Shown one piece after another: positions 8,719 to 56,150 of a stretch of 64,000 nucleotides of DNA (positions are counted from its first letter, which is position 1; every line of letters begins with the position of its first letter). The notes beneath the pieces are model-generated. The model saw only the letters and a program-made list of their open reading frames with translations, was not told the origin of the DNA and ran no database searches. The position numbers and the translations under genes are program-made. The DNA is from Halichondria panicea (Eukaryota > Porifera > Demospongiae > Suberitida > Halichondriidae), in contig NC_087390.1 in NCBI RefSeq assembly GCF_963675165.1, positions 6,354,319-6,418,318 on the forward strand, written 5' to 3'.

Positions 8719-10120
8719 TCAGTTGTCAATGAGAAGGTTTTGAGTATAAGGACACTTGGTGACAATCAGTGTGCAGACTGCATTACTTCCCGAGGCTACT
8801 GAGCCGTGACTATCACCATTGGGAGGAGCAGTAATATCACAGTCACAGCAAATACTGTTTCCACTCTTGTAGTACGAGGTTGACACAAAGAAGCCAGTAT
8901 TGGACAGATCACACAATATACTGGATGTAAAGTACTCTGTGTCCTGCATGCATGGGATTGATACCCTCAATGTATAATTAAAGCTAAGTATAATTATATG
9001 TATATATTATTATGATATAAATACACTTACACCAGGATTGATGGTTATATCTCCAGTATGACAGCCGATCCAATAAGGATTAATTGGAATTGGCAACGTA
9101 AAAGTCCTGGTCTCCTGGATACAGCCCTCATAGAGGTTGACTGTGCGGAGACGATCCAAATCTTGACGAAGGTTGTTCTGGATCAAAGTTGAGTTCTGTA
9201 TTAAGTTCTGCATGCTGGCTATCTGGGAGGAATGTGATGCCAACATCATTGTGATAGTGTCTTCCCTAGAACTATCTCCGGCAGTGCTGGTATTTGATTC
9301 AGTGTTTCCATGCAGATCCACCGCTGACCAGAGGACTGTATATGATGACTGCCACCAGACACACAACTAGAGCACAGGCTAGAAATACAGCCACCATTAG
9401 TGAAATCACACAAAACTTCTCTCTCTTAGTTTTAGTGGAGATTTTACCGACTAGTTGAGAACTGTCCTCAACGCAATTAGGGTAAATGCACTGTTAAAAA
9501 CGGTGTGTTGAATAGCACACTACTTTTCACAGGTAATTTTTAGTGTGTGTTAATGTGCACACCTGTGCATATCTGTGTTCACTGACACTCAATTGTGTGT
9601 AATAGAACACTCAACTGCACAGTGTGTAACTGAACACTCCTGACATTCACCTATGGACAAAATTAGTTTAAGTACAAGGTGCTAATGTTAAAGAATTTTA
9701 CTCAATGACATCGCTCTAAAATCTCATTGGTTAGTTTGTAGTTTTCTCACTTCACTGCCACATGTTTCTCTTTGAAACTCAAGAGAACCAGCTTGGAGAA
9801 GTTGGAGCTAGCTGAAGCAACAACTTGATCTAGTCTAGATATATAATGATATAATAGTATCTACCAGTTCTCCAAGGTCTTTTGGTCAAAGAGAGATCAA
9901 TCCAGCACCCAAAGACGCGAGGACACGAGTGTATCAAAGCAAGACAGCTGTACATATAGCCAGGAGTACTCAGTCCTGATAATAGCAGCCATGTAAGTCA
10001 TTTGTTATACACTATAGAGGTTTATCTTAATCTTTTTACACAGGGAGCTCGTCTACATGTCTATGCCAGTGAATAAGAACCAAGAACAATGTCAATTCTT
10101 GATGTGAGTATATATACATG

Positions 10121-51569: not shown

Positions 51570-52639
51570 GTCTGAGACTGGGGTGACTTTTTGTTGATGG
51601 AGTGCTGTTTTGAAGATACGGTTAAACGGATTGGATGATTTTGAAGCTCTGCAAAGTGGTTTCCTCAGTGTTTGCGTGGGCTGAGAACTAGGGTATGTAA
51701 ATATTGACCCTATCTTGATCGTCCAATCGGATTGCAGCCTGTAAAGTCACCACCTTTTTCCTGTGAGTGGGAAAATACATAGTTTAGGAATTTGAAATTT
51801 AAGCAGTTCGTCTATTGTATCAACAAATACAGGAAATGATCAGGTTTCAATAACAAGGAATGACAGTTAATACACTACATTAACAAGATATGATTACTGA
51901 CGGAATGAGCTGGTTACCTGTACACACTGATGCAATGACTTGTACACAGATAATAATTGTGAGTAAGTTCACATCCACAGAACACCATTCACCTTGTCAA
52001 TCATCAACGTACATATACTTATATTGTACAGTTCACAGACTCAATGGAAATGCTCTCATCTGACATGTGGTTTATATACGAGCAAAACAATGACTCAGCA
52101 CTTTCTATAATTAGTTGACCCCAGGAACATTTCATCATGCAGCCTAATATTAGTGATGACATAGGGAATATACCAGGGTACTGTACAGTGTGTGTGTGTG
52201 TGTGGGTGTGTATGCGTGGTGTGGGTGTGTGTGTGTGTGTGTGGTATGGGTGGGTGTGTATGCGTGGTGTGTGTGTGTGTGCGTGGTGGTGTAGGTGTGC
52301 ATGCGTGGTGTGGGTGTGTGTGATGTGTGTGGGTGTGTGTGGATACAGAATGATGTGTGTATGATATAGTATGATCCATATTTAATATAGTATACAAGCT
52401 GATAGTGAGACTCTGACAGTACTAGGTTGTGATACAGTACAATCAAACAGCTTACTTTAGTGTGTACCTTGTGATAGTGAGGCTCCTAGCCTAGCTCCAA
52501 TAGATATATATATATATACAGTCACACAGTCAAAGATGCTGATCAGAAAAATACACAGAATAAAGGAATGCCTACGCCCCCTCTCGACACACCCCCTTAT
52601 CAAAGGTCATGTAAGGTCACGAATGACGTAAGGATTTTT
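51570..52639. other. Intergenic, between MAPKAPK5 and the snoRNA host gene
   Basis: Divergent promoters presumably lie here. A GT-rich imperfect microsatellite (52186-52350, gtgtatgcgtggtgtgggtg) is the only clear structure. Its His/Thr-rich open frames on the minus strand are repeat artefacts. Confidence 0.6.
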
Positions 52640-52818
52640 GTCGAAAATCTGATGTTTATGTGCGCATGCGCGTTTTCCATGCCACATGGTGTTCAACCAC
52701 GTGGCTGTGAAGGTGATATCAGTTGCTGGACTTCAGTTCTCAGGCATCAGTCAGTCAGTGTCTCTACGGAGGAGTGTGGTAGGTTGTAGTGTTTCTTTAT
52801 ACAGTGTCGTGTGTGTAC

Positions 52819-52881
52819 TGCCAATGATGATCTTGACAAGCATATGTCTGATTATTGTGATGCCACTTTTTATCGCTGAGG
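52819..52881 (+). ncRNA. Box C/D snoRNA, SNORD27-like (18S A27)
   Basis: Box C ATGATGA, D' CTGA, C' TGTGATG and D CTGA, with a gcc/ggc end stem. The guide before D' (gacaagcatatgt) is complementary to the 18S 5' region ACATATGCTTGTC-like sequence (remembered as GCATATGCTTGTC). The fifth base before D' pairs with the A of CAT-A-TGC, which is A27 in human 18S, the SNORD27/U27 target. It ends 76 nt before the acceptor at 52957. Confidence 0.85.
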
Positions 52882-53205
52882 CTAATATTCTATTGCATTT
52901 ATTGTATATAGCTACTTCAGTGATATGTTATTTGACTATTTTGTGCCCCTCTTTCAGATACATTGCTGGCAGTCTGACAAAAAACATCAGAACAGTTTTC
53001 CAGCTGCTAATAATTTATTTCCACGGCCCGGCTAGATATGATGTAAGTGAATGGATTTATTGGCTGCAATTACTTAATTTCATTTATTTGTCTCTGCACA
53101 GAATCTGAGAAGAGGCCAAGAAAAATGTCGACTAGCCCACTACCAAGCAAGCTGACGAGATTGAACTATAACTGCAAGGGCCCTCCTTCAGAGAATGGTT
53201 GCAGT

Positions 53206-53257
53206 GATGATGGCAGCAAGATCGTGCGTGTCAGTGAACTCAAAATCTGAAGAAGCC
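53206..53257 (+). ncRNA. Possible box C/D-like segment in host exon 3
   Basis: A GTGATGA near 53210 and a CTGA near 53249 are spaced like a small C/D RNA, but there is no clear end stem. The segment is exonic in my model and no rRNA match is recognised. Confidence 0.2.
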
Positions 53258-53434
53258 TATGACAGCAGAGGTTGTACAGGTGGCAACTAACCTAGTCGCT
53301 GTAATCATCTCTGGAAATCTTTTCAGTTGTACTACAAAGCCATTGGAGCGTGGGAGAGGTGAGTGTCCTTATCAGTGTGTGTGCATAGTGTGGTTGAGAG
53401 ACTAGTAATGAGTGCATAGTATGGTGGAGGGACT

Positions 53435-53510
53435 AGTACGCTGATGACCATGATATAACCTGAGCATGTGCTGTGACCTCACAACATCTTACCTACATTG
53501 TCTGAGTACT
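53435..53510 (+). ncRNA. Box C/D snoRNA, SNORD34-like (28S)
   Basis: Box C CTGATGA, D' CTGA and D CTGA, with end stem agtac/gtact. The guide before D (cttacctacattgt) matches the complement of 28S AATGTAGGTAAG over about 12 nt. The D+5 base falls on the U of AAU-GUAGG, the site I associate with SNORD34 / yeast snR62. It ends 68 nt before the acceptor at 53578. Confidence 0.8.
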
Positions 53511-53642
53511 CACCTTTGTCAGGACATACCTTAACACTCACATTTAGAGCAAGTGTTGATTATCTGTTATTTCTGCAGGTCTAACTTGGAATGCAGTTGT
53601 ACATATCACACGGTCAGTTTGTGTAGCAGTGAGCTTTTTAAT

Positions 53643-53729
53643 GGTGTGTGATGATGATTAGCTTGACTAGAGTCTCCGATGGGCCCCAACCCCAGTTGAT
53701 GATACAACCCTTGGCTGTCTGAACGCACC
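53643..53729 (+). ncRNA. Box C/D snoRNA family A, copy 1 (28S double guide)
   Basis: End stem ggtgtg/cgcacc, box C GTGATGA, degenerate D' CCGA, C' TGATGAT and D CTGA. The D guide (cccttggctgt) is complementary to 28S ACAGCCAAGGG, with D+5 on the C of ACAGC. The D' guide (gactagagtc) is complementary to 28S GACTCTAGTC. It ends 74 nt before the acceptor at 53803. Confidence 0.88.
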
Positions 53730-53959
53730 TGTTTCAAAGCTTTATGCGCTAAACTTTAGCTATTTTAAACATCTGTTTTTCACTACATGTTACATCTCTA
53801 CAGGGAAAAACCAGATCTGAGAACTAACTGCACAGCTACTGCCTTGTGTTTGGATGTGTGCTGACAGCAAAACTCTATCTGAAATTACTTCACTGGCTTG
53901 CAGCCAAGACAAAATTCGGGAGGTGTGTTAGTTGATTTGTGTTTAGATGACGTCATTGT

Positions 53960-54045
53960 GGTGTGTGATGATGATTAGCTTGACTAGAGTCTCCGATGGG
54001 CCCCAACCCCAGTTGATGATACAACCCTTGGCTGTCTGAACGCAT
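53960..54045 (+). ncRNA. Box C/D snoRNA family A, copy 2
   Basis: Same boxes and guides as the copy at 53643 with only end-stem differences (cgcat instead of cgcacc). It ends 74 nt before the acceptor at 54119. Confidence 0.88.
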
Positions 54046-54229
54046 CATTCAAAGCTTTATGTAGCCACAGCATACTTGTGTGCTTTGTGTGTTAATCGTG
54101 CCAAATCTCATATTTGCAGGCCTGGATGAAGATTGTGTCTAGTGTTAGAAGCAAGACAATGGTGAGCATTTTATCTCAAGGCAGTATCTTTTATGTATTT
54201 CTGGCTAATAGTGAGAGATTCTTTTAAAT

Positions 54230-54316
54230 GGTGTGTGATGATGATTAGCTTGACTAGAGTCTCCGATGGGCCCCAACCCCAGTTGATGATACAACCCTTG
54301 GCTGTCTGAACGCACC
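54230..54316 (+). ncRNA. Box C/D snoRNA family A, copy 3
   Basis: Essentially identical to copy 1 including the ggtgtg/cgcacc stem. Its distance to the acceptor at 54479 is 163 nt, longer than usual because a dispersed repeat (about 54345-54440) has been inserted between them. Confidence 0.88.
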
Positions 54317-54562
54317 TGTTTATAATGAATATCTACCCCAGAAATATAATCTGATGTGATAGGCCTTGTCTAAAGCTACAGAATGCATATCTTAGTTTTG
54401 ATATTGATTGCTTTTTAGTGAAGTTAATGGCTTCCCGAAAGTAGTCTTGGTTTTGTATTAATTCTGCTACCCACTGTAGCACCTGCTGAGGTCATCAAGT
54501 GCTTCAAGATGTTGCAACTTCCACAAAAGTGAGTAAACTTGTTGTGGTATTTTAATCTGTAA

Positions 54563-54646
54563 GGCTGTGATGACTAGGATAATCCCAGCTCGCTTCGAGT
54601 CTCTTATAGAGATGTTGAAGAGAAATAGTTCCTTTCCAACTGAGCC
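54563..54646 (+). ncRNA. Box C/D snoRNA family B, copy 1
   Basis: End stem ggct/agcc, box C GTGATGA and D CTGA. The guide before D is aatagttcctttccaa, for which I recognise no rRNA target. An internal guide (atcccagctcgc) could pair with 28S GAGCTGGG near the GTTTAGACC sequence, partly through G-U pairs. It ends 87 nt before the acceptor at 54733. Confidence 0.82.
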
Positions 54647-54844
54647 ACAATTACAAAGCCTGCATGTAGCCATAGCATTGCTGCATACCTCAAGTACTTT
54701 GTGTGTTAATCGTGCCAAATCTCACATTTGCAGGCCTGGGTGAAGATTGTGTCTAGTGCTAAGGAGCAAGACAATGGTGAGCATTTTTATCTCAAGGCAG
54801 TATCTTGTATGTATTTCTGGCTAATAGTGAGAGGTTCTTTTAAT

Positions 54845-54930
54845 GGTGTGTGATGATGATTAGCTTGACTAGAGTCTCCGATGGGCCCCAACCCCAGTTG
54901 ATGATACAACCCTTGGCTGTCTGAACGCAC
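54845..54930 (+). ncRNA. Box C/D snoRNA family A, copy 4
   Basis: Same core as the other family A copies. It ends 118 nt before the acceptor at 55048; a dispersed repeat fragment (about 54955-55010) lies between. Confidence 0.88.
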
Positions 54931-55139
54931 TAAATACTATCCAAATTTGAGCATATCATGTGATAGGCCTTGTTGAGAACTACAGAATGCATCTCTTACT
55001 TTTGTATCTTAGAGACGTATTAACTGTTGTCTACATATCCCTGTGCAGTAACTACTGAGGTCATCAAGTGCTTGAAACTTCCACAAAAAATGAAAATGAG
55101 TGAGTATTGTTTTGTGGCATATTTAATAATCACTTGTAA

Positions 55140-55223
55140 GGCTGTGATGACCAGGATAATCCCAGCTCGCTTCGAGTCTCTTATAGAGATGCTGAAGAGA
55201 AATAGTTCCTTTCCAACTGAGCC
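55140..55223 (+). ncRNA. Box C/D snoRNA family B, copy 2
   Basis: Near-identical to 54563-54646 with the same stem and boxes. It ends 74 nt before the acceptor at 55297. Confidence 0.85.
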
Positions 55224-55396
55224 ACACACAATAAGTGTAGTAATGTGTGGAATGCAACTAGCTCCGTGTGATTACATGTGTATCCACTTCCTTACAGGGC
55301 AAAGCTGTGTTGAGAGGGTTCAGTCAATGTTGTAAGGAAAGTGCTGATTGTAAGGTATGTCAGTGTGTTGTGTGTTTTGTCCAGTTACTTGTGTTG

Positions 55397-55462
55397 CACC
55401 GATGATGATCCCACACAGACCTGTACTGAATCTCTTATGAAGCATCTTGTCAACTGATGGTG
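55397..55462 (+). ncRNA. Box C/D snoRNA, SNORD25-like (18S)
   Basis: End stem cacc/ggtg, box C GATGATGA, D' CTGA and D CTGA. The guide before D' (cacagacctgt) is complementary to 18S ACAGGTCTGTG over 11 nt. The fifth base before D' pairs with the first G of AGGUCUGUG, the region methylated by SNORD25 in human (G1490). It ends 72 nt before the acceptor at 55534. Confidence 0.85.
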
Positions 55463-55603
55463 TATTTATATAGTCTCTGCGTTGCTGTGCTCATAGCTTT
55501 CTGTTTTTAACTTTCTGTTTATACGCACATGCAGATTAGAGCTGGGCCACGGATACATTTACGTTCAGGTGAGAAGTCAGTGTGTGTGCTGTGAGTGTGT
55601 GTG

Positions 55604-55687
55604 TGCTGTGATGACCAGGATAATCCCAGCTCGCTTCGAGTCTCTTATAGAGATGTTGAAGAGAAATAGTTCCTTTCCAACTGAGCC
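55604..55687 (+). ncRNA. Box C/D snoRNA family B, copy 3
   Basis: Same core as the other family B copies, with a slightly weaker end stem (tgct/agcc). It ends 76 nt before the acceptor at 55763. Confidence 0.85.
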
Positions 55688-56150
55688 ACACCTATTTATT
55701 ACCAGCTGATGTGTTTACTTATTTTTTAACAATTATTGTAACATCTGTATGTACATTTCACAGATTGCTCAAAACCTAGCGGGGTCACGAGGTCAAGTCT
55801 GTTCAAAAGATGATCTCAGAACTATTAATTTTCGTATTGAAACTGATTTTGTTGTCATGTGTCAATATAAATAATAATTCAATCAGTGGTCAACTAGAAA
55901 TCAATCATTAATAAAAAAAAATTTATGAGCAAGTTTATATATCGTATGACAAGAATAATAATTTCAAATTTTTTTGACAATTAGGCCTATATAAAAATTA
56001 CTATACAGAGCCAAAAATAATCTCTAAGTCATAATTAAGAGAAGTGATAAATATTCATATACACATAGTGCTGATGGGGAGATGGTGAATAAAGTGTACA
56101 AGAGTAGAAGTAAGAATAAATTAGAAATTGATTACACTACATGTACTGTA

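Follow-up and report, generated by a model that had tools for sequence, protein, structure and literature searches.

A 64,000-nucleotide (nt) stretch of the Halichondria panicea genome (contig NC_087390.1, positions 6,354,319 to 6,418,318; hereafter the window) contains a locus that is, with high probability, a sponge host gene of the UHG type, that is, a multi-intron gene that carries small nucleolar RNAs (snoRNAs) and does not code for protein. Eleven pairs of splice donors and acceptors can be placed on the forward strand between approximately 52,717 and 55,912, followed by a polyadenylation signal, and 10 of the 11 introns, as placed by splice signals only, contain one box C/D snoRNA apiece (Table 1). 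The snoRNAs fall into five guide families, comprising one U27-like, one U34-like, four snoZ157, three snoR69Y/U29-site and one U25-like guide. The evidence is read directly from the letters, and consists of the series of splice sites, the boxes and guides, the lack of a coding signal in the exons, the conservation among snoRNA copies, and the position of this locus as the best or only place for these guides in the genome.

Intron structure and exons of the host gene

A scan of the region found 13 sites that satisfied a 7-of-9 donor rule, among which are 9 of the 11 donors, and 51 sites that satisfied a loose acceptor rule, among which are all 11 acceptors. In 8 of the 10 snoRNAs, the end of box D lies 73-90 nt before the acceptor. 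The other two, snoZ157 copies 3 (54239) and 4 (54854), lie 170 and 124 nt before it, and nearer AGs at 54418 and 55012 would give distances of 109 and 88 nt for these copies. According to the Neurospora study (PMC2780460), how far a snoRNA lies from the 3′ splice site has a bearing on its processing.

Spliced together, the exons amount to 982 nt with a longest ATG open reading frame (ORF) of 64 amino acids, and an ORF as long was found in 80 of 500 shuffles. The snoRNA copies are much better preserved, with 98-100% identity over 89 nt among the snoZ157 copies and 97-98% over 88 nt among the snoR69Y copies. The difference is most visible in a tandem duplication of an exon, a snoZ157 intron, a second exon and a snoR69Y intron, with repeats beginning at 54080 and 54694. 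The first half of this duplication has 93-97% identity outside the snoRNA and looks young, whereas the second half looks old, with 59-63% outside the snoRNA and 98% within. Between the repeats, exon 7 and the intron flank on the 3′ side have 63% identity, against 98-99% for the snoRNAs, and the other exon pair differs by a one-base gap that breaks the frame. This division into young and old halves may point to gene conversion in the snoZ157 part, and the likeness of the copies could partly come from such exchange. Gapped alignment of the flanks of the six snoZ157 pairs showed that both sides align for copies 3 and 4, and that copies 1 and 2 have a common 14-base stretch downstream (equalled in none of 200 shuffles), with the flanks of the other four pairs no more similar than shuffled ones. 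Of the three snoR69Y pairs, that of copies 1 and 2 can be aligned on the upstream side alone, and the others resemble shuffles. Since the copy cores are conserved, the exons have diverged and the ORF is at the level of shuffles, it appears that the cargo has been retained and the exons have not, a pattern also described for human SNHGs in PMC11405852.

These results agree with much of a first-pass annotation of the window made from sequence alone. It had proposed ten intronic box C/D snoRNAs in one non-coding host, to which we add an eleventh readable intron, and it had put the ends of eight of them 68-87 nt before the acceptor. Its description of the exons as non-coding and poorly conserved also holds, as neither the shuffles nor the duplicated exons gave a signal of a conserved protein, and the exons have drifted around snoRNA cores that are 97-100% alike.

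snoRNA families and their predicted rRNA targets

C and D boxes were found in all ten snoRNAs, each D box ending in CTGA. A strict scan (RTGATGA ... CTGA, with a stem of at least 4 bp) recovered six of the ten, missing those at 52823, 53441, 54567 and 55144, which have stems of 3-5 bp by eye and in one case CTGATGA as C box. The same rule gave one additional match within the gene (53204) and three elsewhere in the window, both strands being scanned. Rfam models at gathering threshold gave four matches in the whole window, and these were the snoZ157 copies of the host gene. A sub-threshold scan added five more, SNORD27 with 41.9 bits, snoR69Y-like with 26.9-34.7 bits (n=3) and SNORD25 with 23.8 bits, leaving the snoRNA at 53441-53508 unmatched even there. 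The guide of the latter is one that we take to be the U34 guide. As the cut-offs of SNORD27 (RF00086) and SNORD25 (RF00054) were not reached, the names U27-like and U25-like are given by the guide.

Target sites were checked on the sponge's own 18S letters for U27 alone, and for the other families on ribosomal RNA (rRNA) of yeast and animals; in the yeast stretch, eight methylated sites fell on the correct base. Runs of 10-15 pairs between guide and rRNA were found in all five families. The U27-like guide pairs at 12 of 12 positions with the start of the sponge 18S, the fifth position from box D (D+5) being A. On yeast and animal rRNA, the U25-like guide has an 11-pair run with 18S (D+5 is G), and the U34-like guide a 15-pair run with 28S (D+5 is U with box D at CTGA). 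The snoZ157 copies would target U2421 through the D′ guide, with 10 pairs, and C2365 through the D guide, with 11, in yeast numbering. Arabidopsis SnoR37 guides C2366 and U2422 according to the site list of PMC8053127, and because both guides fit these sites, we regard the snoZ157 copies as probable double guides of the SnoR37 type. The predicted target of the snoR69Y-like guides depends on which letters form the D′ box: read as TCGA, the box points to A2946, which is the U29 site, through 10 pairs including one G-U, and read as CTTC it points to C2948, which is the snR69 site. Both sites are covered by a single Neurospora snoRNA, CD27, and U25 and snoR19 are given as having a common target site, in PMC2780460. 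The D+5 positions land on bases that are listed as methylated, for U27 with the sponge's own 18S letters and for the others with yeast and animal rRNA; the list in PMC8053127 includes A28 (U27), U1892 (U34), A2947 (U29), C2949 (SnoR69Y) and G1434 (SnoR19).

In searches of the 131 Mb genome, the host gene was the top place for the SNORD27 model (41.9 bits, versus 23.9 for the next) and for the SNORD25 model (23.8 versus 21.2), among the best first-look candidates that were scored (64 of 28795 for SNORD27 and 66 of 12218 for SNORD25). The U34-like guide with its D box, TTACCTACATTGTYTGA, occurs once in the genome, in the host gene, and so do all four genome places of snoZ157 DNA and all three of snoR69Y-like DNA. 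No match was obtained in viral contigs with exact patterns for U27-like, snoR69Y-like and snoZ157 guides (the last in two forms), or in prokaryote contigs with the snoZ157 pattern, and a distant blastn search against phages produced a single match, weak and partial (E 0.8).

We considered a SNORD29 gene at another place in the genome and rejected it, as the model gave eight matches with E values of 1.7-8.4, all under the cut-off. When five of these eight loci were scanned with Rfam, no SNORD29 match exceeded the cut-off, the highest score being 23.5 of 48 bits. At one of the eight (L012, position ~1520, 22.4 bits), the sequence AGCTCACTATG resembles the U29 guide with its D′ box; no C box was found near it, and this candidate was not accepted.

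As a side observation on the rRNA genes, the 5′ end of 18S was found at 37 places on contig C2 (~3.30-4.57 Mb), on both strands and with irregular spacing of ~7 to 170 kb, a pattern suggestive of dispersed units rather than a single head-to-tail array.

Table 1. Positions of the host gene, its snoRNAs and related features
Feature	Position	Strand	Remarks
Putative snoRNA host transcription unit, 12 exons and 11 introns	52717..55912	+	both ends guessed; AATAAA near 55910
Probable promoter region	52600..52716	+	GCGCATGCGC (taken as NRF1-type) at 52662, CACGTG at 52698
Intron 2, 59 nt	53043..53101	+	without snoRNA
U27-like C/D snoRNA	52819..52883	+	intron 1 (52779-52957); 41.9 bits, below cut-off 52
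U34-like C/D snoRNA	53441..53508	+	intron 3 (53359-53578); guide precedes box D; without Rfam match
snoZ157/SnoR37-type copy 1	53642..53730	+	intron 4 (53613-53803); 58.6 bits, cut-off 55
snoZ157/SnoR37-type copy 2	53959..54047	+	intron 5 (53923-54119); 58.2 bits
snoZ157/SnoR37-type copy 3	54229..54317	+	intron 6 (54162-54479 or -54418); 58.6 bits
snoR69Y/U29-site copy 1	54558..54649	+	intron 7 (54529-54733); 27 bits, cut-off 45; repeat D2
snoZ157/SnoR37-type copy 4	54844..54932	+	intron 8 (54777-55048 or -55012); 58.8 bits
snoR69Y/U29-site copy 2	55135..55226	+	intron 9 (55100-55297); 26.9 bits; repeat D2
U25-like C/D snoRNA	55395..55464	+	intron 10 (55355-55534); 23.8 bits, cut-off 39
snoR69Y/U29-site copy 3	55599..55690	+	intron 11 (55569-55763); 34.7 bits; repeat D2
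Tandem duplication, exon + snoZ157 intron + exon + snoR69Y intron	54080..55240 (54080-54660, 54694-55240)	+	
SNORD31-like snoRNAs outside the host gene	L032 5041-5116; L033 4579-4653, 4903-4972; L034 4963-5026; L035 4916-4979		

Upstream region and neighbouring genes

The palindrome GCGCATGCGC, presumably an NRF1-type motif, lies just upstream of the host gene and is the single occurrence in the window, against 0.0064 expected. An E-box was also considered as a sign of Myc control, as in the Drosophila Uhg genes, and was dropped, CACGTG occurring 12 times in the window against 13.5 expected. The left neighbour of the host gene is a MAPKAPK5-like kinase gene and the right neighbour an Arf-family gene, both on the minus strand. 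One protein of the window has its top organism-named relative in Amphimedon (55%, among the best 120 of 6476 matches), and another has it in Ephydatia (45%), the next named one being a fish (30%); both speak well for a sponge origin of the window.

Proposed function and alternative explanations

We infer the transcription, processing, methylation and promoter of the host gene from the features above. A single RNA polymerase II transcript would be spliced, its exon RNA being a by-product, and ten of the eleven introns would each be trimmed to one box C/D snoRNA shielded by core proteins. The snoRNAs would then guide 2′-O-methylation at about six ancient rRNA sites, namely an A (U27) and a G (U25) in 18S and, in 28S, a U (U34), U2421 and C2365 (SnoR37), and A2946 (U29) or C2948 (snR69), the numbers being those of yeast. 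Repeated copies of two families may raise the dose, and at least one pair of copies was probably made by tandem duplication.

Several points weigh against this reading. The splice sites are consensus matches, with a loose rule for acceptors, and a clear 5′ terminal oligopyrimidine (5′ TOP) tract was not visible by eye in 52600-52780. Four of the five guide families are under the Rfam cut-off or unmatched, and the SNORD25 match is weak by itself, with a genome-wide E of 0.71. Since the genome searches scored the best candidates, they are not proof that these guides are absent elsewhere. In the snoR69Y copies, box D′ is degenerate, being read as TCGA or CTTC, so their target could be A or C; we prefer TCGA, in view of the GA that this reading retains. 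In addition, these copies were not among the matches when the genome was searched with the SNORD29 model (RF00070), and we class them not as SNORD29 but simply as snoR69Y-like guides whose target is the U29 site or lies beside it.

Two other accounts of the locus appear far less probable than a non-coding host gene. If the exons encoded a short conserved peptide, the snoRNAs would be passengers in a coding gene, for which the 64-amino-acid ORF could be cited. We rejected coding exons and consider this account very improbable, given how often shuffles hold an ORF of that length and given that the duplicated exon pairs have either lost their common frame or kept just 63% likeness. Alternatively, each snoRNA could have its own promoter, with the splice signals arising by chance, but all ten lie between a donor and an acceptor and eight of them at a steady distance from the latter, and we find this hardly credible.

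Relationship to vertebrate UHG/SNHG1

Like the vertebrate UHG/SNHG1 gene, the sponge host gene appears non-coding, with intronic box C/D snoRNAs for U25, U27 and probably the U29 site. Unlike in UHG/SNHG1, U31 is found elsewhere, guides of the U34 and SnoR37/U52 types are present and two families are multicopy; the gene neighbours differ and a 5′ TOP was not seen by eye. The first-pass annotation had placed two members on the rRNA sites of SNORD27 and SNORD25, which pairing and D+5 support (for U25 on yeast and animal 18S), and had raised homology to SNHG1/UHG, which is not demonstrated by our results.

Vertebrate UHG hosts U22 and U25-U31, as stated in an excerpt of PMC7277114, and of these eight the sponge gene shares U25, U27 and probably U29. 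Assuming 36 rRNA sites conserved across plant, yeast and human (as counted in a part of PMC8053127) and five sponge families, and counting four or seven UHG members among them ourselves, we calculated the probability of chance overlap. For four members, at least two of five families would be shared with P = 0.084, before multiple testing, and at least three with P = 0.0053; for seven members, the values rise to 0.244 and 0.040. An argument from two snoRNAs is thus weak, and it is the third site that makes common ancestry worth testing. snoR69Y and SNORD29 are grouped in one Rfam clan, CL00051, although SNORD36 is there too. If the snoR69Y copies served the snR69 site alone, the overlap would go back to two, and several human hosts could have served as comparison.

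One possible history is that an ancestral animal UHG gave rise to both this locus and SNHG1/UHG, with U25, U27 and the U29-site guide together since before the sponge split, U31 having departed, and U34 and U52-type guides having joined. Both of these types belong to other human hosts. Drosophila Uhg1, which carries U27, U29 and U31, lends this history some support. This host, too, is non-coding, and it holds 16 snoRNAs, with five positions targeted by them alone (PMC4430873). On the opposing side, the sponge genome has U31-type guides at five further loci, two of the five exceeding the Rfam SNORD31 cut-off and two adjoining a UBR4-like exon (E 1e-10), and a U30-type pattern had no match in a genome pattern search. 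The MAPKAPK5-like and Arf-family neighbours differ from those of human SNHG1, and the exons of the host gene give no support for descent from UHG. Moreover, snoRNA hosts are unstable over long times and guides move between hosts, according to a passage of PMC3511168. In sponges, SNORD100 stays in its host RPS12, and SNORD24 is in RPL5, not RPL7A, in the part of PMC3412847 concerned. On balance, we regard common descent from one ancestral UHG as unlikely though possible, and a separate gathering of the five families through snoRNA movement and duplication as likelier.

Among the SNORD31-like loci themselves, the L033 pair is the one beside the UBR4-like exon, and L034 and L035 look near-identical, with similar exon letters. 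At L032, a SNORA53 over the Rfam cut-off (47.2 bits, 8860-9076) lies ~3.7 kb from the SNORD31 copy on the same strand.

Significance

Multi-snoRNA non-coding hosts have been described in vertebrates, flies and fungi (PMC7277114, PMC4430873, PMC2780460), and the UHG-type host gene is an established kind. Drosophila Uhg1 resembles the sponge gene as a non-coding host with many snoRNAs for few sites, a likeness by description in part of PMC4430873, not by sequence. The UHG-like clusters I-V of Neurospora are similar in having hosts with no more than short ORFs and with intronic C/D snoRNAs, making the architecture also fungal, and a passage by their authors calls their snoRNA composition unlike that of UHG-type genes (PMC2780460). 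The four sponge copies exceed the cut-off of Rfam RF00333 (snoZ157), and both of their guides fit the C2366 and U2422 sites of Arabidopsis SnoR37; they differ in being four in number and intronic in a seemingly non-coding animal gene. What is new is a UHG-type host in a sponge, with its five-family cargo and two amplified families, and a snoZ157 match over the cut-off in an animal genome. Among the titles listed from open-licence literature, at most 20 per search, none concerned a sponge host gene that carries snoRNAs and is non-coding, and the sponge snoRNA literature listed dealt with ribosomal-protein and FAU genes (including PMC3412847).

Five ancient guide types appear to come mainly from this locus, and its silencing could abolish about six rRNA methylations. 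The locus also allows one to test whether groupings in a host gene can persist for as long as animals have existed. There is a minor chance that vertebrate UHG has its sponge ortholog here, with a U25-U27-U29 grouping dating from the last common ancestor of living animals. If so, the host would rank with the oldest long non-coding RNA genes that can be traced, preserved solely through its cargo, with its exons fully replaced.

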